This document shows, piece after piece, positions 29,391 to 60,050 of a stretch of 64,000 nt of DNA; position 1 is the stretch's first letter, and each line of letters opens with the position of its first letter. This DNA comes from Pikeienuella piscinae (GTDB lineage Bacteria; Pseudomonadota; Alphaproteobacteria; Rhodobacterales; Rhodobacteraceae): positions 62,001 to 126,000 of the forward strand of contig NZ_CP049056.1 of assembly GCF_011044155.1 (NCBI RefSeq), read 5' to 3'. A program made the translations under genes and the position numbers. The notes below the pieces were generated by a model that had not been told where the DNA came from, searched no databases, and worked only from the letters and a program-made list of their open reading frames with translations.

Positions 29391-30572
29391 ATGTCCGATC
29401 CAATCGTCATCGTCGGCGCCGCCCGCACGCCGATGGGCGGCTTTCAGGGTGAGCTTGCAGGGGCTTCGGCCTCCGCTCTTGGCGGCGCGGCCATCGGCGC
29501 GGCGCTGGAGCGGGCCGGGGTCGCGGCGGCGGATGTCGACGAATTGCTGATGGGGTGTGTGCTGCCGGCCGGGCAGGGGCAGGCGCCGGCGCGTCAGGCC
29601 GGGTTCAACGCCGGGCTTTCCGAGGCGGTTCCCGCGACGACGCTCAACAAGATGTGCGGCTCCGGCATGAAGGCGGTGATGGTCGCGCATGATCAGCTTC
29701 TGGCCGGCAACGGCGATGTCGTCATCGCCGGCGGCATGGAGTCGATGTCGAACGCGCCCTATCTCCTGCCGAAGATGCGCGGCGGGGCGCGGCTCGGCCA
29801 TGCCGAAGTCAAGGATCACATGTTTCTCGACGGGCTGGAGGACGCCTATGAGCCCGGCCGGTTGATGGGCGACTTCGCGGAGGATTGCGCCGAGAAATTC
29901 CAGTTCACCCGCGAGGCGCAGGATTCCTACGCGCTCGAATCGCTCTCCAATGCGCGCGAGGCGCAGGCGAACGGCGGTTTCGCCAAGGAGATCGTCGCGG
30001 TGAAGATCGCGACCCGCAAGGGCGAGGTGGAGGTGAGCGAGGACGAGCAGCCGAAATCCGCGCGCCCGGAGAAGATCCCGACGCTGAAGCCGGCCTTCCG
30101 GAAGGACGGTACGATCACGCCGGCCAACGCCTCCTCGATCTCGGACGGGGCGGCGGCGCTGGTCCTGATGCGGGAATCGGAGGCGAAGGCGCGGGGGCTG
30201 ACGATCCGCGCCCGCATCCTCGGCCACGCCAGCCACGCGCAGGCCCCCGGCTGGTTCACCACCGCGCCGGTTCCGGCGATGAAAGCCGTGCTGGCGAAGG
30301 CCGGCTGGGGGGGCGGCGATGTGGACCTCTGGGAGGTGAACGAGGCCTTCGCCGTGGTGCCGATGGCGGCGATGGCGGAGATCGGGATCGAGCGCGAGAA
30401 GCTCAACGTGAATGGCGGCGCCTGCGCGCTCGGCCACCCGATTGGGGCGTCGGGCGCACGGATTCTGGTCACGCTTCTTCACGCGCTGGAGGCGCGCGGC
30501 GGCCAGCGCGGCGTTGCTTCGCTCTGCATCGGCGGCGGTGAAGGGACGGCGGTGGCGCTGGAGCTGGCGTAG
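29391..30572 (+). CDS. acetyl-CoA acetyltransferase (thiolase)
   Basis: This 393-residue thiolase condenses or cleaves acetoacetyl-CoA. The nucleophilic cysteine is C89 in NKMCGSGMKA. The catalytic histidine lies in GGACALGHPIGASGARI, and the second cysteine in SLCIGGGEGTA. The N-terminal VGAARTPMG and the tetramer loop fit the biosynthetic (AtoB/PhaA) subgroup. No phaB or other PHB genes follow, so its pathway is not fixed; ketogenesis, PHB or the ethylmalonyl-CoA pathway are all possible in Rhodobacterales. A complex inverted repeat follows immediately after the stop. Confidence 0.88.
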   Translation: MSDPIVIVGAARTPMGGFQGELAGASASALGGAAIGAALERAGVAAADVDELLMGCVLPAGQGQAPARQAGFNAGLSEAVPATTLNKMCGSGMKAVMVAHDQLLAGNGDVVIAGGMESMSNAPYLLPKMRGGARLGHAEVKDHMFLDGLEDAYEPGRLMGDFAEDCAEKFQFTREAQDSYALESLSNAREAQANGGFAKEIVAVKIATRKGEVEVSEDEQPKSARPEKIPTLKPAFRKDGTITPANASSISDGAAALVLMRESEAKARGLTIRARILGHASHAQAPGWFTTAPVPAMKAVLAKAGWGGGDVDLWEVNEAFAVVPMAAMAEIGIEREKLNVNGGACALGHPIGASGARILVTLLHALEARGGQRGVASLCIGGGEGTAVALELA

Positions 30573-30581
30573 GAGCCGGGC

Positions 30582-30679
30582 GACCCCTTATCGCGCGTTA
30601 TCGCACGCGATAAGGGGGTCAAGCCGTTGATATATATCAGCAATCATAAAATGCGTGCGCGATAACGCGCGATAAGGGG
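30582..30679. repeat. nested inverted-repeat element between convergent genes
   Basis: The 21 bases at 30584-30604 reappear as an exact reverse complement at 30659-30679. Inside, CCCCTTATCGCG (30584-30595) also pairs with CGCGATAAGGGG (30606-30617), so two alternative stems compete for the same left arm. Between them lies a 12-bp perfect palindrome, TGATATATATCA (30628-30639), inside an FNR-like TTGAT-N4-ATCAG (30627-30640). The element occupies the space between thiolase and cupin stops, so at minimum it can act as a two-way terminator. The AT-rich centre contrasts with the flanks. Confidence 0.7.
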
Positions 30680-30696
30680 CGGATTTCCGGCCCGAT

Positions 30697-31161
30697 TCAG
30701 GCGAGCGGCGGGCCGACGAATTCCAGCTTGTAGCGCGCGGCGAGTTCGAGGATCCGGGGCATGTCGCGCTCCGGCGACAGCGCTTCGGCGGCGACGTCGC
30801 GAAAGAGGCCCTCGCCCGCGCCCGGCGTCAGCGTGATCAGCGCCCGCGAGGTTCCGGGGCCGAGCCCGCGGAACGTATGCCGCGCCCCGGCGGGGATCAG
30901 GACGGTGAAGCCCGGTCCGGCCTCGACCTCCTCGCCCTCGCAATGGAAGCGGACGCGGCCCTCGGTGACGACGAAGAATTCGCGTGCGTCGTGGTGGATA
31001 TGAAGCGGTGGGCCGGCGCCCTCCGGGATCTCCTCCTCGAAGACCGAGAAGGCGCCGCCGACCGCGGCGGCGGGGATGCGAAACCAGCGGCGGAGGCCGA
31101 AAGCGCGGTTCTCCTCGCCCGCGCCGGGGCCGTGGACGACAGGCGCGAGGCTCACGCTCAT
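30697..31161 (-). CDS. cupin-domain protein
   Basis: This 154-residue protein is a single cupin. Motif 1 reads PLHIHHDAREFFVVTEGRV, with H-x-H and E as metal ligands, and motif 2 is PAGARHTFRGLGPG with another histidine. The C-terminal tail resembles quercetin dioxygenase-like cupins. Start ATG 31161 (MSVSLAPVVHGPG) is chosen over the open frame to 31215. The fold supports many activities, so the substrate cannot be named. It is convergent with the thiolase gene. Confidence 0.8.
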   Translation of the reverse strand: MSVSLAPVVHGPGAGEENRAFGLRRWFRIPAAAVGGAFSVFEEEIPEGAGPPLHIHHDAREFFVVTEGRVRFHCEGEEVEAGPGFTVLIPAGARHTFRGLGPGTSRALITLTPGAGEGLFRDVAAEALSPERDMPRILELAARYKLEFVGPPLA

Positions 31162-31444: not shown

Positions 31445-32809
31445 TCAGCCGATCTGCGCGAGAAAGGCCTCGATCTCCCGCGTCGCGTGCGGCCAGGCCT
31501 GATCGTCCGCCGGCATCAGATGGTTGACCGAGTCGAGCACGACGAAGCGCGAATCCGGAATGCCGGCGGCGAGCCGGCGGCCCTGTTCGAGCGGATGCAT
31601 GCGGTCGCCGCCGGCGTGCAGGAGGAGGGCGGGGCAGCGGATCGCGGGGAGGATGGCGGTGACGTCCAGATGGCCGATCACGTCGCGAAAGCGCCCGAAC
31701 GACTCGGCGGTGATCATCTCGCGCATGGCTTCGGCCAGAACGCGGTGGTCCTCGGCGGAGGCGCCGGGCGAGATGATGCGGGCGAAATGGTCGCGGATCG
31801 ACGGGTAGGAATCGTCCCAGCCGGTCCGGGCCATGGCGTCCAGCGCGGCGACGAATTCGGCGTGCCGCGGCTCGCTCCGGACATGGCCGCCCTGGGCGAA
31901 GCCGCCGAGGCAGATCAGCGCCGAGACCCGTTCGGGGTGGCGCGCGGCGAATGCGGCGGCGGTGGCCGCGCCCTGCGAGAGGCCGAAGACCGGCGCGCGC
32001 TCGACCCCGGCGGCGTCGAAGACCGCTTCGAGATCGTCGACGAAGCGCTCGACGCTCAGCTCCGGAACCGTCCGGTCGGAGAGGCCGTTGCCGCGCTGAT
32101 CGAAACGGATCAGCCGGCGGCCGCGGGTCAGCGTCGTGAGAAGGCCGGCGAAAGGCGTTCGCCAGTCGCACTCCAGATGTGAGATCCAGTTCGGGGCCTT
32201 CACCAGCGCCGGGCCGTCGCCGATCGCGGTCCAGGCCAGTCTGGCGCCGTCCCGCGAGGTCGCGAAGCGGATCTGCTGGCTGGCCGCCAGCGCCGAGGCG
32301 GTCTCGTGGCGCTCCGCCGCGTCGAGATCGAGCGCCAGCGCCTCCACCGGCCGGGCGAGGCCCTTGAGGCGGAGCGCGCCCTCGGGGCGGAGCCCGACAC
32401 CGATTCCGCCGCCGGCCATCTCGACCGCCGCGCGGCTGACCAGCGCGCCGCCGGGCCGGGCGGCCTCCTGCAGGCGCGCGGCGATGTTGACGGCGTCGCC
32501 GAAGATGTCATCGCCCTCCACCGTCACGTCGCCGACATGGACGCCGGCGCGGAGCTGCGTCGCCTCGGCGCGCATCGCCTGCTGGATGCTCTGCGTGGCG
32601 CGGATGGCGTCGCCGGCGGCGCCGAACTCCGCCAGCGCGCCGTCGCCCATCAGCTTGACGACGCGCCCGCCGGATTCGCGGATCAGCGGGCGGACGATGG
32701 TCCGCAGGATGCGCTGGAGATCGCGGAGCGTCGCCTCGGCGTCCTCGGCCATGCGGGCGCTGTAGCCGACGACGTCGAGCGACAGGATGGCGGCGATATG
32801 TCGGCTCAT
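31445..32809 (-). CDS. class III adenylate/guanylate cyclase fused to alpha/beta hydrolase
   Basis: This 454-residue soluble protein joins two enzymes. Residues about 5-165 form a class III nucleotidyl cyclase. It has the metal aspartates in LSLDVVGYSARM and KLMGDGALAEFG, and the dimer-site DIFGDAVNIAARLQ. Residues about 190-450 form an alpha/beta hydrolase with nucleophile serine in FGLSQGAATAAAF, an aspartate in LHAGGDRMHP and the histidine in SVNHLMPADD. ATG 32809 (MSRHIAAILSLD) is preferred; an in-frame ATG lies 13 codons upstream. Cyclase-hydrolase fusions are known in rhizobia and relatives, but their signal is not. It follows argF by 69 bases and is bracketed by an argF remnant. Confidence 0.85.
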   Translation of the reverse strand: MSRHIAAILSLDVVGYSARMAEDAEATLRDLQRILRTIVRPLIRESGGRVVKLMGDGALAEFGAAGDAIRATQSIQQAMRAEATQLRAGVHVGDVTVEGDDIFGDAVNIAARLQEAARPGGALVSRAAVEMAGGGIGVGLRPEGALRLKGLARPVEALALDLDAAERHETASALAASQQIRFATSRDGARLAWTAIGDGPALVKAPNWISHLECDWRTPFAGLLTTLTRGRRLIRFDQRGNGLSDRTVPELSVERFVDDLEAVFDAAGVERAPVFGLSQGAATAAAFAARHPERVSALICLGGFAQGGHVRSEPRHAEFVAALDAMARTGWDDSYPSIRDHFARIISPGASAEDHRVLAEAMREMITAESFGRFRDVIGHLDVTAILPAIRCPALLLHAGGDRMHPLEQGRRLAAGIPDSRFVVLDSVNHLMPADDQAWPHATREIEAFLAQIG

Positions 32810-32878
32810 CGGGGGCACCTCATGCGGGCGGATCGGGAGCGGGAGCATACACGCGGCGGCGCCTGCGGTCAGGGGAGA

Positions 32879-52409: not shown

Positions 52410-55400
52410 ATGACGGCGCGGCGAGACGCGATGAGGGCGACCCGCCGCGCCACGCTCCTCCTGGCGCTCGCACTCGGGTTCCCCGGCGATGCGCCGGCCG
52501 GGCCGAAGGGTGGCGTGGTCGCGGCCGGCGACGCGCGGATCGCGACCAGGGGCGCGCGCACCACGATCACCCAGGGCTCCGACAAGGTGGTGATCGACTG
52601 GCGGAGCTTCGATATCGACGCGGGCGAAGCGGTGAAATTCCTGCAACCGGGCAAAGGCTCCATCGCGCTGAATCGCGTTCTCGACGTGCTGCCCACGAAT
52701 ATTCGCGGCCAGTTGCTCGCGAACGGATCGGTATGGATCGTGAACCGGAACGGCGTCACCTTTCACGCCGGCGCGATGGCCGATGTCGGCGGGTTGCTCG
52801 CGACCACCGCGGATATCTCCAATGCGGATTTCATGGCCGGCGACTACCGTTTCGACCGGCCGGGCGCGCCCGATGCGAAGATCGTCAATGAGGGGGAGAT
52901 CACCTTCGCCGAAGGGGGAGTCGCGGCCTTCGTCGCGCCGGGCGCCGAGAACCGCGGCGTCATCGCCGGCAAGGTCGGCAAGGTCGTGATCGCGGGCGCC
53001 GAGACCTTCGCTGTCGATCTCGCCGGAGACGGGTTCTACGCCTTCGCGCTGGAGGACGGCGCGGGCCGCGCTGGCAACACCGGCCGCATTCACAATCCCG
53101 GCGGTTACGTCCTGATCACGGCGACCTCCGCGAGCGGACTGGTCGACAGCCAGATCTCCGTCGGCGGCGTCGTCGAGGCGCAGACGGCGGAGAAGCGAGG
53201 CGGGCGGATCGTGCTCTCCGGCGATGGCGGCGTCGAGGTTTCCGGCGTTCTCGACGCCACGGGGGCCGCGCGGCGGGCGGCGGGCGGCGCTGTGGAGGTC
53301 GCGGGCGACAGGGTCCGGGTGGCGGAGAGCGCTTCCATCGACGTGACGGGCGCGGCGGGCGGCGGAGCGGTCGGCGTCGACGGCGCGCGCGTCCTTGTCG
53401 CGAAAGGCGCGACGATCCTGGCGAATGGTTCCGATGTGGGCGATGGCGGCGCGATCACGGTATGGTCGCGCGAGGCGACGGCCTTCTCGGGCCGGGTCGA
53501 GGCGCGCGGCGGCGCGGGCGGCGGCGATGGCGGGTTCGTGGAAATTTCTTCGGCGGGGCTTTTGCGGTTCGACGGCGCAGCGGATCTCTCCGCGCCGAAG
53601 GGCGCGCGCGGAGAGTTGCTTCTCGACCCCGTGAACATCGTGATCGGGGCGGCCGGCGCTGACGACGCGGAACTTGACGATAATGAAATCCTCTTTGGCG
53701 ACCTCGATGGCGAGATCGCGGATCTCACGCTGAGCGCGGCGGCTTTGAGCGCCGCGACCGCCGATGTGACCTTGCAGGCGACGAACGACATCACTGTGGA
53801 CGCCGCCGTATCCACCGGGTTCGGTCTGAGCCTTGAGGCGGGGCGCGACATCGTTCTCAACGCGGATATCGCCGCGGCGGCGCTGACGCTGAGGGCGGAC
53901 GCGGACTTCACCGTGACCGGCGGGCCGGCGGCTGACGGCGCGGGAACGATCCGGTTCAACGGCGGCGGGCTATCCGGGGCCGATGTGGCGCTTTTCGCGG
54001 GCGAGGCGCTTACGCTCGGGCGGATCGCGGCGACGGGCGAATTCGCGGTCGCGACCGCCGCGGGAGGGATCGCCCAGGGCGCGGGAACGGCGCTTTCCAT
54101 CGGCGGCGCGAGCGTGATCGACGCGCCCGGCCAGGCGGTGACGCTCGATGCGGCGGGAAACGATTTCGGCGGCGCCGTGGCGCTGAACGCCGGCGGCGTC
54201 GCGCTGGTCGATATGAACGAGGTGAACATCGGCGTCTCGGATGTCGCCAGCCTCGATGTCGGGGCGGGCGGCGCGATCGGCCAGAGCGGCGCGTTGACGG
54301 TCGCCGGGAATGCGGCGTTCGCGGCGACGGACGGGGCGGGGAATTTCGACATCACGCTCGCCCTCGCCAATGATTTCGGCGGGCGGGTGGACGCGGCCGG
54401 CGCCGCCGTGACGCTGAACGACATTTCGGCGCTTCGACTAGGCGCTATCTCGGCGCTGACGCTCGATGTCGCTGCGAGCGGCGCGCTGACCGATACGGCG
54501 GGCGCGGCGATTTCGGTCGCCGGAGCCGCCTCCTTCGCGGCGACGGGCGGCGGTGTTTTCGATCTGACGCTCGACAATGACGATTCTTCCGACCGCCACG
54601 GATTTGGCGGTGCGCTTTCGGCCGCCGGACGGGACGTGACGCTGATCGGCGCGGGCGGGATCCAGCTCGGCTCGGTTTCCACCGTCGCCTCGGGCGGCGG
54701 CGGGTCGCTCCTCGTCGGCGCGCGGGCGGGTTCGATCACCGATGGCGACGCCGGCGCGCTGCGCGTGGAGGGCGACGCCGCCTTCGAGGCGACCGGCGCC
54801 ATCCTTCTCGACAACGCCGGGCATGATTTCGACAGCGACGGGGCGGATGACGGGGCGGATGACGGGGCGCCGGGGCGGGATTTCGTGACATTCCTCGCGG
54901 GCGGCGCCGCCACGATCGTGGATTCGAGCGGGCTTTTCGTCTTCGACAGCGCAGCCATGGGCGACCTGACGCTCACCGCTGCGACGGGCGACCTGTCCCT
55001 CGCCGAAGTGACGGGGGCGGCGCTGGTCGGAACGGCCGAGGGGGGAATATCGGCCGTCGACATTAGCGCGTCCGGCGCAACGTTCGGCGGTGCGGGATCG
55101 GTCGCCGGCGCCGCCGTCGCCGGAGCGGGGGCCGTCGCGTTGGAGCGGGCGATCATCGGGCCTGGCGGCCTCGGCGCGGCCAGCGCGCGCGAGGTCGCGC
55201 TCAACGATGTCTTCGCCGATGGCGCGATCACGGTGCGCGCGCCGGTCCAGCGCTACGTCTATCTCCGCTCGGCCGGACTCGCCGCCGGGACGCCGGGCGA
55301 TTTCAACGAGGGGATCGCCGGGGCCGCCGGGGATATCGACTTGCTGACCCTCGACCGGATGCGTTTCGGCGGCGATATCGCCATCGCGGCGGGGGAGGTC

Positions 55401-58400
55401 CGTTTCGGCTTCCTCGACGCGGGCGGCGACCTGACGCTAAACGCCGTGGCCGGCGACGCCGCAAAGTTCACCGACGCCGAGATAGACTACACCGGCGCGG
55501 GAATGAGCGGCACCACCATCGCGCTTGGCCGTTCGGCGGCGACGATGCAGGCGGCGGACGCCAACGGCGCCTTCACCGAACTGGTCAGCATCGCGGGCGA
55601 CGCCAGCCTCTCCGCCACGGGCGCTATCGTCCTGACCCGCGGATTCGACGCCGATGGCGGCGCCTTCCAGGCGCATATCGATGGCGCTCTGGCTCTCACC
55701 GGCGCCAGCGCCGCGGTCGAGGATTCACGCGGCCTCATGCTCGGCGATCTCGACGTGGCCGGCGACTTGGCGCTTCGGTTCAACGCCGATGAAAGCGCGG
55801 GCGCAGGCGAGGCGCTGAGCCAAATCGCGGGAGGCGCGGTGCGCGTCGGCGGGACGTTGAGCGCCATCGCGGGCGTTCATGGCGGACCGCTCGATACAGC
55901 GGAGCTTGGCGATATCATCCTCGACAACGCGGCGAACGCGTTCAGCGACGTGAAACTGATCGGCCGGGACGCAAGACTGCGGGATGCCGACGGGTTCGCC
56001 GTCACCGGCGGCGCGCTCGGCGGCGACCTGCGGATTGGCGCCCCGGAGGCGGCGCAGGCGGGCGATCTTGTCATCGCCGAACTCTCGGCTGGCGGGATGC
56101 TCGGCTTCTCCGCAACGGGGGCCGTCGCGCTCGATCGCCTGTCGCTCGGCGGCGCCGGACCGTTCGCGCTGGATGGCGCGGCGGATGGGGGCGTCGCGGC
56201 GACGGATATTCAGGCGGCTGGCGGCGCGCGGCTCGCGTCTGCGCGCGGCGCGATCTCTGTCGCGCGCTTCGATCTCGGTGATTTCGACATCGTCTCCGGC
56301 GGCGCCCTCGCGTTGAGCGAAGGCGACCTTGGCGCGGGGCGCGCTATCGCGGGGGCGGGCGCGGCGCTTTCCAATGTGAGCCTGGCGACCGGCGCGATTG
56401 AGGCGTCGGGAACACTGTCGGCCGATGCGGTGCGCGCGGCGGGCGAACTGGACCTCACCGGCGTGGATGTGCGGATCGGCGCCCTCGATATCGGTGGCGC
56501 GCTGGGCGCAACGGCGACGAGCGGCGCGATTGCGCTGGCGACTGCGCGGACCAACGCGCCGGCGGATGTGGAGATCGCGGGTCCGGGCGCGCCGGAGCTT
56601 GGGATCGGAACCGTCGGGGCGGGGGATCTGCGTGTGAACGACAATATCGACGCCGGGGCCGGGACGTCGATTTCGCGTGATGATTTCGACCGTCGCGTCG
56701 AAGTCGTCGGGCCTGCGACGCTCTTCGCGACCGGGGACATCATGCTGCCGCGCGAAGGCGCGGGGCTCGACGGGCTCCACAACCGCTTCGTTGGCGCCGT
56801 GGCGCTGAACGCGGGCGGCGATGCTACGCTCGCCACGGTCGATGCGCTGACTCTGGCGGCTGGCGCGGTCGGCGGGGCGCTGACGGTTCTGACCAACAGC
56901 GATAACGCCGGCGCCGCCAACGGGCTCGGTCAGGGCGGCGCGCTCGCGGTCGGCGGCGCGCTCTCGATCTCCACCGGCGATCATGGCGGCGCGCCGATCG
57001 CGTCGGCGGGGCGGCTGGGAGATGTCGCGCTGACAGATGCGGGCAACCGGTTCGGTGGGGCGGTGTCTGTGGTGGCCGATGACGCGGCGCTGGTCGCGGC
57101 GGAGGGATTCGCGCTGAGGGATAGCCGGCTCGGCGGGGCGTTGAGCGCGCGCGTCGCGTCGAATTCCACCTCCGCCGGGCTGAGCGTGACCGACATGGCG
57201 GCGGGCGGTCCGGTTACGCTGAACACGGCCGGCGCGGTCGATCTGGCGAGGCTGGCGGTCGGCGGGTCCCTGACGGCGGAGAGCCGGGGCGCCCGTCTCG
57301 ACGCCAGAGACATCAGCGCCGGAGCGACGGCGCTCCGGGCGGCGGGGGCGGTCGCCCTCGACGACATGACGCTTGGCGCGACGGAAATCGCGGCTGGCGG
57401 CGCGGTCAGCGCGACGGACATTCGCGCCGGGACGGTGAAGATCGACGCCGCGCGCGCCACGCTCTCCCGCGCGGTGACCGGGGCGACGGCGCTGAAGGTC
57501 GCGGGGGTGGCGAATGTCGACCGGTTGATAGCCGACGCGACAGTGATCGAGTCCGAGGGGGCGCGCGTGACGAACGCCCGGATCGCGGGGGCGTTGACGC
57601 TCGACGCCGGCGGCGGCGCGGCCACGCTAAGGGATCTTTCGGTCTCCGGCGCGGCGCGGATCGAGGCGGCTTCGATCGGCTTTGGCGGCGACGCCGGCGC
57701 GCGCGTTCATGTCGGCGGCCGGATGACCGCGCTCGCCGATGGCGGGATCGACCTTTCCGATCTCTCGGTGGGTGGGGCGACGCGGATGGTCGCCGACGGG
57801 CGCGCGACGCTCGATGATTTCGATATCGGCGATTTGACCCTGACAGTGGGCGCGAGCGCCGATCTCGGCGACGGGCGCCTCGGCGCGCTGGTTCTGCGCG
57901 CCGGCGGCGCGGCGGCGCTCGACAATCTCCGGCTCGGGCGGCTGGACGCGCGGGCGGCGACCGGGATGCGGCTCGACGGGCTGTCAGCGGGTGGCGCGGC
58001 GACGCTCTTCAGCGCCGGCGGCGATATCGGTCTCGGCGCGGTCGCCGTGGCCGGACGGCTTCGCGCTTCGGCGCCGGAGGGCGATATCTTCACTCTCGAC
58101 AGCGATTTCGCACTCGGCCGGGTCGCAATCGATGGGCCGGGCGAAGCCAGGGTTCCGGAGGCGGTGGCGGAGGGGCCGGACGCCGATGCGCCGCTCCCGC
58201 TCCGCGTCGCTCCCGCGGGCCAGACGATCGTTCTCGGCGCCGAGCGGACTGCGGGTCTGCTTCACGTCGCCGGCGACACCTATCTCTCCGCCGGCGGCGA
58301 TGTCGCGCTGGTCGATGATGTGCGAGGCGTGACGGGCGACAATGATTTCGGCGGCGGTGTCTCCGTCCTCGCCGCGCGGAACGTCATGCTGAACGACGCC

Positions 58401-60050
58401 AACGACATTGCGCTCGGCGCGCCGACCGGTGTTGCGCTCCCCGGCGGCGGGCGGGCGACGCGGAGCGGGATTTTCGCCGCCGGATCGCTCCGCGTCGAGG
58501 CGGGTGGAAAGATCAGCGACGCCGCGCCGCCGCGCGCGCGCCTCGAAATCGGCGCCGACGCGCTCTTCCTCGCCGGCGAGGATATCCGGTTGAACAATGG
58601 CGGACATGCGATCGCCGGCGCGGTTGGCGCTCAAGGGCGCGACGTCATCCTGACCGAGGCCGGCTCGATCGACCTCGGGCCGATCCGGGCCGGGCGCGAT
58701 CTGCGCATCGTGGCGGGGGCCGCCGGCGCGACCGGCGATGCGGCGATCCGGCAGGTCGGTGTTGTCGATGTCGTCGATATGGCGGCGGCGGCGCCTTCGG
58801 CGCTCGCCGCCGCGCCTGGCGCGGCTGCGGCGCGGCGCCGGGGCGCCATCCGCGTCTCCGGCGACGCGGATTTCTCGACCGGGCTCGACCCGGCGCGCGG
58901 ATTCGGGATCGTCGCCGCCGGGGCGGAGCGCGATCTCGTTCTGGGCAACGCCGGGAACATCTTCAACGGCGTGATCTCGCTCCGCCGGATCGCCGGCGAT
59001 GCGGTGCTGACCGAGGAAAGCGCTGCGCGCTCCGCCGGCGGCGTCGCGACGGCGCAGCGCCTCGCGAATTGGGAGGTTGGCGGCTCAACCCTTCTGACGA
59101 CAACGGACGACGTTGTCTTTCTGGGGCGACTTACCGCGCTCGAGGACGGTGCGGGGCCGCCGCCGCGGCTCGCTCGACCGAACGCGGCGGCTCCGCGCCA
59201 GCAGGGCGAGGCGGCGTTGCCGGAGAACCTTCTGCGGCTCTATCTCAATTCGGGCGAAGAGTTCCGGATCGACACGACCGGCGGCGGCTTCGCCCCGCGC
59301 GGCGGTTTCGTGCGCTTCGATCGGCCGGTCGACGGGCTGAACGATGCGCCGCCGGTCGGCTCCGCCGCCATTGCGACGGAGCGCGGCGGGCTTGGTTCGC
59401 TCTCCATCGCCGCCGGGCGCGGCGCGGTGCGTTTTCGCGATTTCGTCGGCGCGGCGAACCCGATCGGCGCGCTCGATATCAAGGGCGGCGCCTTTTTCGC
59501 AGGGTTCACTTTCGCGGAAAGGACGCCCGGCGGTAACGCCGTGCGGACGCGGTTCCTCTTCGATCCGGCTTTCCCGGACGATTACTTCTTCAGCGGACCG
59601 ATCCGCATCAACGTCTCGGGTCCGCTTCTTGCGGCGCCGCCGCCGGGGCAGGTGGACGCTTTCGTCTCTTCCGACAGCTATTTCGGGATCAATACGCCGG
59701 CTTTCACCTTCGGCGACCTGATCGCGCCAAGCTCGGCCGAAGCCTATGGCTTCATCGTCAACACCCGTCAGCGCGCCGGGGGACTCTTTCCTGTGCCTCC
59801 CAGCCGCTCGCGGGAGTTTCAGTTCAACGACTGCGTCATCGGCGATGTCGCGGATTGCACGAACGTGCCGACGCCGAATGTCGTCAACCAGGTGCTGATC
59901 GTCGCGCCGCCGGTTCTCGACATCGACGACCAGGAGTTGCTCGAGTTGTTCGGCAGCTTCGGCAACGAGGAGCTTTGGGGCGTGCCGCAGAGCTTCTTCT
60001 CGGATTTCGTGAACACCGCCGCGCCATGCGAAGAGGGAAGCACATGCTGA
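52410..60050 (+). CDS. TpsA giant filamentous-haemagglutinin-type exoprotein
   Basis: This 2,546-residue exoprotein has a signal peptide (about 1-31). An N-terminal TPS domain follows (about 35-290), recognised by SIALNRVLDVLPTNIRGQLLANG (83-105) and by NRNG (112-115) in place of the usual NPNG. The next roughly 2,000 residues are Gly/Ala-rich beta-helix repeats such as VALNAGG, ALTLAAG and GDLRI. A non-repetitive C-terminal region starts near residue 2,220. The only four cysteines are C2475, C2483, C2540 and C2546, the last residue. There is no VENN motif, toxin domain or immunity gene. ATG 52410 lies four bases after tpsB; ATG 52431 is an alternative. It probably forms a secreted or surface fibre for adhesion. 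Confidence 0.88.
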   Translation: MTARRDAMRATRRATLLLALALGFPGDAPAGPKGGVVAAGDARIATRGARTTITQGSDKVVIDWRSFDIDAGEAVKFLQPGKGSIALNRVLDVLPTNIRGQLLANGSVWIVNRNGVTFHAGAMADVGGLLATTADISNADFMAGDYRFDRPGAPDAKIVNEGEITFAEGGVAAFVAPGAENRGVIAGKVGKVVIAGAETFAVDLAGDGFYAFALEDGAGRAGNTGRIHNPGGYVLITATSASGLVDSQISVGGVVEAQTAEKRGGRIVLSGDGGVEVSGVLDATGAARRAAGGAVEVAGDRVRVAESASIDVTGAAGGGAVGVDGARVLVAKGATILANGSDVGDGGAITVWSREATAFSGRVEARGGAGGGDGGFVEISSAGLLRFDGAADLSAPKGARGELLLDPVNIVIGAAGADDAELDDNEILFGDLDGEIADLTLSAAALSAATADVTLQATNDITVDAAVSTGFGLSLEAGRDIVLNADIAAAALTLRADADFTVTGGPAADGAGTIRFNGGGLSGADVALFAGEALTLGRIAATGEFAVATAAGGIAQGAGTALSIGGASVIDAPGQAVTLDAAGNDFGGAVALNAGGVALVDMNEVNIGVSDVASLDVGAGGAIGQSGALTVAGNAAFAATDGAGNFDITLALANDFGGRVDAAGAAVTLNDISALRLGAISALTLDVAASGALTDTAGAAISVAGAASFAATGGGVFDLTLDNDDSSDRHGFGGALSAAGRDVTLIGAGGIQLGSVSTVASGGGGSLLVGARAGSITDGDAGALRVEGDAAFEATGAILLDNAGHDFDSDGADDGADDGAPGRDFVTFLAGGAATIVDSSGLFVFDSAAMGDLTLTAATGDLSLAEVTGAALVGTAEGGISAVDISASGATFGGAGSVAGAAVAGAGAVALERAIIGPGGLGAASAREVALNDVFADGAITVRAPVQRYVYLRSAGLAAGTPGDFNEGIAGAAGDIDLLTLDRMRFGGDIAIAAGEVRFGFLDAGGDLTLNAVAGDAAKFTDAEIDYTGAGMSGTTIALGRSAATMQAADANGAFTELVSIAGDASLSATGAIVLTRGFDADGGAFQAHIDGALALTGASAAVEDSRGLMLGDLDVAGDLALRFNADESAGAGEALSQIAGGAVRVGGTLSAIAGVHGGPLDTAELGDIILDNAANAFSDVKLIGRDARLRDADGFAVTGGALGGDLRIGAPEAAQAGDLVIAELSAGGMLGFSATGAVALDRLSLGGAGPFALDGAADGGVAATDIQAAGGARLASARGAISVARFDLGDFDIVSGGALALSEGDLGAGRAIAGAGAALSNVSLATGAIEASGTLSADAVRAAGELDLTGVDVRIGALDIGGALGATATSGAIALATARTNAPADVEIAGPGAPELGIGTVGAGDLRVNDNIDAGAGTSISRDDFDRRVEVVGPATLFATGDIMLPREGAGLDGLHNRFVGAVALNAGGDATLATVDALTLAAGAVGGALTVLTNSDNAGAANGLGQGGALAVGGALSISTGDHGGAPIASAGRLGDVALTDAGNRFGGAVSVVADDAALVAAEGFALRDSRLGGALSARVASNSTSAGLSVTDMAAGGPVTLNTAGAVDLARLAVGGSLTAESRGARLDARDISAGATALRAAGAVALDDMTLGATEIAAGGAVSATDIRAGTVKIDAARATLSRAVTGATALKVAGVANVDRLIADATVIESEGARVTNARIAGALTLDAGGGAATLRDLSVSGAARIEAASIGFGGDAGARVHVGGRMTALADGGIDLSDLSVGGATRMVADGRATLDDFDIGDLTLTVGASADLGDGRLGALVLRAGGAAALDNLRLGRLDARAATGMRLDGLSAGGAATLFSAGGDIGLGAVAVAGRLRASAPEGDIFTLDSDFALGRVAIDGPGEARVPEAVAEGPDADAPLPLRVAPAGQTIVLGAERTAGLLHVAGDTYLSAGGDVALVDDVRGVTGDNDFGGGVSVLAARNVMLNDANDIALGAPTGVALPGGGRATRSGIFAAGSLRVEAGGKISDAAPPRARLEIGADALFLAGEDIRLNNGGHAIAGAVGAQGRDVILTEAGSIDLGPIRAGRDLRIVAGAAGATGDAAIRQVGVVDVVDMAAAAPSALAAAPGAAAARRRGAIRVSGDADFSTGLDPARGFGIVAAGAERDLVLGNAGNIFNGVISLRRIAGDAVLTEESAARSAGGVATAQRLANWEVGGSTLLTTTDDVVFLGRLTALEDGAGPPPRLARPNAAAPRQQGEAALPENLLRLYLNSGEEFRIDTTGGGFAPRGGFVRFDRPVDGLNDAPPVGSAAIATERGGLGSLSIAAGRGAVRFRDFVGAANPIGALDIKGGAFFAGFTFAERTPGGNAVRTRFLFDPAFPDDYFFSGPIRINVSGPLLAAPPPGQVDAFVSSDSYFGINTPAFTFGDLIAPSSAEAYGFIVNTRQRAGGLFPVPPSRSREFQFNDCVIGDVADCTNVPTPNVVNQVLIVAPPVLDIDDQELLELFGSFGNEELWGVPQSFFSDFVNTAAPCEEGSTC
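54837..54869 (+). repeat. 12-bp tandem repeat inside tpsA
   Basis: GACGGGGCGGAT is repeated at 54837-54848 and 54849-54860, and a partial third copy starts at 54861. In frame it gives DGADDGADDGA. Repeat length is a multiple of three, so slippage would change the protein in steps of four residues without breaking the frame. Confidence 0.85.

Follow-up and report, generated by a model that had tools for sequence, protein, structure and literature searches.

The E. coli RIB and RIP elements (BIME-1) are IHF-binding repeats, which are extragenic and multicopy, consist of a palindrome adjoining an IHF site, are often found behind stop codons and in some copies possess a second inverted half-site. 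In parS of the P1 plasmid, boxes for the partition protein flank an IHF bend on both sides. The Correia elements of Neisseria (CREE/NEMIS) are short, mostly intergenic and have inverted ends, and IHF sites are known in some of them (PMC2229807, PMC2649163). Many REPs of E. coli have been reported with a stop codon close by (PMC12306157). Furthermore, CGTC-tagged REPs (PMC3733652) are palindromic extragenic repeats that are common in alphaproteobacteria and have no known dedicated transposase. The repeat analyzed here is located in a window of 64,000 nt of the Pikeienuella piscinae genome, by which we mean the whole stretch of DNA under study. It probably belongs to a dispersed family of IHF-coupled palindromic sites, strictly extragenic and of the RIB/BIME-1-like kind, with IHF binding being predicted.

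The nested inverted repeats, which a sequence-only reading had noted between convergent genes, are present as claimed. The sequence CCCCTTATCGCGCGTTATCGC (30584-30604) has an exact 21-bp inverted copy at 30659-30679, 54 bases apart, and its first 12 bases also pair with a third site at 30606-30617. Likewise, the letters TTGAT-N4-ATCAG occur as TTGATATATATCAG, and the flanking thiolase and cupin-like genes are convergent (Table 1). The arms of the window copy reach 26 nt with two mismatches (30584-30609 and 30654-30679, 92%), and this copy is the most elaborate member of its family. At the orthologous locus in the genome G101 of the same genus (L060), the thiolase gene is kept at 83%, but it is followed by different genes and lacks the element.

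Table 1. Features of the repeat element and its flanking genes (positions within the window).
Feature	Positions	Strand	Remark
Acetyl-CoA C-acetyltransferase (thiolase) gene, upstream	29391..30572	+	stop codon 25 nt ahead of the head
Extra outer left arm CCCCTTATCGCG	30584..30595	+	peculiar to the window copy
Repeat element by family model R1	30592..30669	+	C1:92592-92669; 74.8 bits, E 1.8e-20, a match expected in itself because the window copy was in the training set of the model
Palindromic head TTATCGC-AC-GCGATAA	30598..30613		dyad between 30605 and 30606
G-run linking head to IHF-like site	30614..30618	+	GGGG conserved in alignments A1 and A2
Predicted IHF site TATCAACGGCTTG	30620..30632	-	WATCARNNNNTTR 9/9; starts 14 bp from the head dyad
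FNR-like TTGATATATATCAG	30627..30640		overlaps the IHF-like site; not conserved in the family
AATCATAAAA, window form of the conserved AATCAGAAA motif	30642..30651	+	A1, A2; kept at shared loci of relatives
Right inverted half-site CGCGATAACGCG	30658..30669	-	at least 9/12 match in 9/26 genomic copies
Extra outer right arm CGCGATAAGGGG	30668..30679	-	peculiar to the window copy
Cupin-like gene, convergent	30697..31161	-	by reading of the sequence; without NCBIfam match

The suspicion that the repeat recurs in the genome proved right. The sequence CGCGATAAGGGG was found 15 times compared with one match for the reversed control, and the 20-mer TTATCGCACGCGATAAGGGG gave 32 matches at up to 3 mismatches, 11 of them exact, vs 0 for its reversed control; owing to the palindromic core, several places were matched on both strands. 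With a sequence model, 26 copies having head and tail were identified in the 4.37-Mb genome, among which the window copy scores best. In the family alignment, the 16-bp palindrome TTATCGCACGCGATAA is followed by GGGGG, TCAA-N4-TTGATAT and the AATCAGAAAA motif. The right half-site is found at its threshold of at least 9/12 in 1.4% of shuffles vs the nine of 26 own copies. The tails within one genome show an identity of only 0.41-0.47 and are nearly unrelated outside the conserved columns, with spacers close to column-independent; some subfamily structure was detected among the tails of G000 (variance ratio 3.3). A common right-end motif around GTTAACC, found as CCGTTAACCGGATTT in G000 and as TGTTAACCTTT in the genome G296 of the same genus, is shared by the own-genome copies L039, L044, L045 and L166 and by G296 copies, which suggests an older end of the element.

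The head lies at a nearly constant distance from the putative IHF site. The minus-strand reading of TCAANNNNTTGATA includes WATCARNNNNTTR, the IHF consensus, and a consensus score of 8-9 of 9 was reached by 19 of the 26 own-genome copies, most of them originally found through the head alone, vs 5.8% of shuffled tails. The distance between the dyad and the IHF-like site amounts to 14 bp in 21/26 own-genome copies and to 13-15 bp in 135 of 136 copies when relatives are included, with score ties broken towards 14. Each of the four genus genomes has a gene for IHF-alpha that scored above its curated cut-off. A palindromic unit stands beside a predicted IHF site as in RIB/BIME-1. The interpretation as an FNR/FnrL box is not supported, because TTGAT-N4-ATCAG is not conserved in other copies and its TTGAT half belongs to the conserved match to the IHF consensus; the form TTGAT-N4-ATCAA is absent from other copies as well, and an FNR/FnrL-controlled site was rejected.

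Not a single copy, among the about 26 of the own genome and those of relatives, was found inside a predicted gene, with genes being predicted from codon usage by a script for which the window served as the training set. A left gene directed at the head has its stop codon within 20 nt in 63/82 cases compared with 9% expected for random intergenic placement, an expectation derived solely from stretches sampled in the own genome, and the counts are not all independent because same-locus copies of G101 and G295 were both included. The excess directly behind stop codons is strong in one orientation, yet about half of the own copies are located 5' of a gene. No recurrent partner family was found among 139 flanking genes, whose functions are unrelated. 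In a check of the orientation relative to replication, neither an origin nor a terminus could be clearly recognized from the GC skew of 20 stretches sampled.

Related bacteria use the same architecture with different palindromes. In G101 and G295, both of the same genus, the tail occurs about 25 times each next to another palindrome, TGCACACAGTGTGCA and close variants. In some of these copies (L113, L128, L133, L139, L142-L144, L146 and L158), the end is formed by a further AT-rich palindrome, CGAAAATTTCGAAATTTT, which follows the AATCAGAAA position. Two weak tail matches in G296 adjoined GGTTTCACGCGTGAAACC-type heads. As a test of the prediction, a search for this head returned 45 matches vs 0 in the control, and nearly all of the 30 copies listed have the IHF-like site at the same offset. 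The full-element model of the G296 element also matched other genera, and the TTTCACGCGTGAAA palindrome is used by this third same-genus genome and at least four other genera (G296, G283, G091, G356 and G404 were the genomes with such sites). A search for the TTTCACGCGTGAAA head with a fixed-spaced IHF core yielded 38, 47, 48 and 23 matches in four other genera, and one match in a fifth; the 394 genomes otherwise gave no match, and the controls were at 0. Because the spacing was part of the query pattern, this search partly dictates the spacing seen in G283, G091, G404 and G356. The heads are unrelated in sequence between species. In other species, the own palindrome was found in only 2 unrelated contigs in a search of 84,980 genomes, and among 295 family genomes it occurs in the own genome alone. 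Searches of viral contigs and plasmids gave no match. For a swap of the palindrome between sister species at preserved spacing we found no precedent, nor did we find a relevant paper with TTTCACGCGTGAAA or a report of such repeats from Rhodobacteraceae in the openly accessible literature.

Selection on the individual motifs is supported at shared loci. For 16 same-locus pairs of the sister species G101 and G295, the conservation was 0.93 for the head, 0.92 and 0.88 for the IHF parts and 0.91 for AATCAGAAA, whereas the N4 of the IHF site (0.73), the spacer (0.70) and the downstream bases (0.75) are drifting. The upstream, mostly coding flanks are also conserved (0.92), hence, the argument rests on the contrast with the interleaved and downstream non-coding bases. 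One palindrome pair covaries at the only freely varying position (permutation p 0.0014, 18 distinct heads). Judged from these comparisons, the sites appear to be kept by selection at present.

Among the described systems, the RIB/RIP elements are the nearest known kind, and an IHF-coupled palindromic repeat comparable to them is the best-supported class. Extragenic placement, copy number, the palindrome adjoining a predicted IHF site, the frequent position behind stop codons and the second inverted half-site of some copies are shared with them. The sequence is, however, unrelated, the IHF site is a predicted one here, about 25-50 sites occur per genome, the palindrome, unlike the 14-bp spacing, varies from one sister species to another, and no RAYT-type transposase was found. 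Membership in the GTAG-tagged, RAYT-associated REP family of E. coli was rejected, since the heads lack the GTAG tag and no Y1_Tnp was found in the four genus genomes. The CGTC-tagged REPs are likewise palindromic and extragenic, but neither a CGTC nor a GTAG tag was seen in the consensus found here, and the accessible part of the source makes no mention of an IHF-like site at a fixed distance (PMC3733652). The Correia elements resemble the repeat in their shortness, inverted ends, occasional IHF site and mostly intergenic position; in contrast to them, no conserved long terminal repeats were found across the copies, the spacers are not homologous, no copy was found in genes and the motifs are conserved copy by copy. 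The TTTCACGCGTGAAA head resembles half-sites of parS, as known from the P1 plasmid and from chromosomes, but it has two additional bases in its center, the copies are dispersed and number in the dozens, and other species use unrelated palindromes.

For the favored reading as a dispersed IHF-coupled site, the following mechanism is probable. A lineage-specific factor would read the palindrome, while IHF would bind 14 bp from the dyad and bend the DNA, as the consensus match and the fixed spacing indicate. In copies with a right half-site, the bend would bring this half-site back to the factor bound at the palindrome. The sites probably spread by a duplicative process and would now be held by selection. 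The likeliest role is that of a DNA-architectural or insulating site, often directly behind stop codons. The preserved spacing at other palindromes in related bacteria suggests a system of DNA-protein sites distributed over the chromosome that has not been described so far. It is possible, although rather less likely than not, that this is a two-protein system of patchy distribution in the family, in which a fast-changing factor reads the palindrome and IHF docks at the rigid 14-bp spacing, so that the palindrome is replaced between sister species while the spacing, the IHF-like site and the extragenic placement stay. If true, this would be an IHF-coupled repeat whose recognition palindrome swaps between close species with the geometry held. 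It would provide a natural experiment for addressing the question, unanswered since the E. coli RIB/BIME elements, of why such repeats are retained behind genes in bacteria, and would predict a co-evolving DNA-binding protein that is so far unknown.

It is rather unlikely that the repeats are Correia-like MITEs or REPINs, i.e. non-autonomous mobile elements with palindromic ends recognized by a transposase, IHF aiding transposition and effects on the host being incidental. Dozens of copies in few genomes and none in most, the right half-site, which a third of the own copies possess, and the IHF sites of the Neisseria elements mentioned above are in line with this explanation. Moreover, copies of different palindrome types are, save one possible pair, not shared by position, a pattern more typical of mobile elements than of fixed landmarks of the chromosome. 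On the other hand, spacers within one genome are near column-independent, each motif is conserved on its own at shared loci, no Y1 transposase was found in the four genus genomes, and no transposase family is among the 25 commonest families of the 139 flanking genes. The control search detects Y1_Tnp in E. coli; with no Y1_Tnp found in the genus, RAYT/REP mobilization was rejected. Similarly, neither terminal inverted repeats at both ends of most copies (9/26 with the right half-site) nor a homologous interior, with conservation restricted to columns, was found. Hence, the earlier proposal of a MITE-like repeat stands as far as a multicopy extragenic family with inverted ends is concerned, but not in the sense of a simple MITE.

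A palindromic operator that together with IHF governs a regulon would agree with the conserved palindrome at fixed IHF spacing and with the copies located 5' of a gene, but it is very improbable given the many copies between convergent genes or directly behind stop codons, the functionally unrelated flanking genes and the lack of loci common to the palindrome types within one genus. Least probable is an RNA-level element, such as a REP-like 3' hairpin causing ribosome stalling or protecting mRNA ends, a small RNA or a terminator, because the close stop codons, comparable to those at E. coli REPs (PMC12306157), and the very stable fold of the window copy are opposed by weak folds of other copies, by the missing T-run and promoter at the window copy and by the fixed spacing to the IHF-like site, which is a DNA-level feature. 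In the favored reading, the function common to the sites involves no RNA folding, FNR control or termination.

Among the copies folded, a strong RNA structure is a trait of the window copy alone. The region 30560-30700 folds with a z of -7.25, with 0/200 shuffles being as stable, and a tighter region reached -7.61, whereas five other own-genome copies gave values of 0.57 to -1.98 and four copies of relatives -1.64 to -2.85. An intrinsic terminator was rejected, because a GC-rich hairpin followed by a T-run was not found at the window copy; a conditional terminator and a small RNA are not supported either, with no promoter-like site found at the window copy. Rfam searches of the window gave no match at the gathering score; a long hairpin produced matches of the microRNA type, all of them sub-threshold. 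Elsewhere in the window, one predicted gene of about 7.6 kb extends over 52431-60050 (+). A protein predicted at 31445-32848 (-) matches alpha/beta hydrolases with its C-terminal part, its best NCBIfam match being the bifunctional lipase/adenylate cyclase LipJ far under the cut-off, while its N-terminus, by reading of the sequence, resembles a class III nucleotide cyclase.
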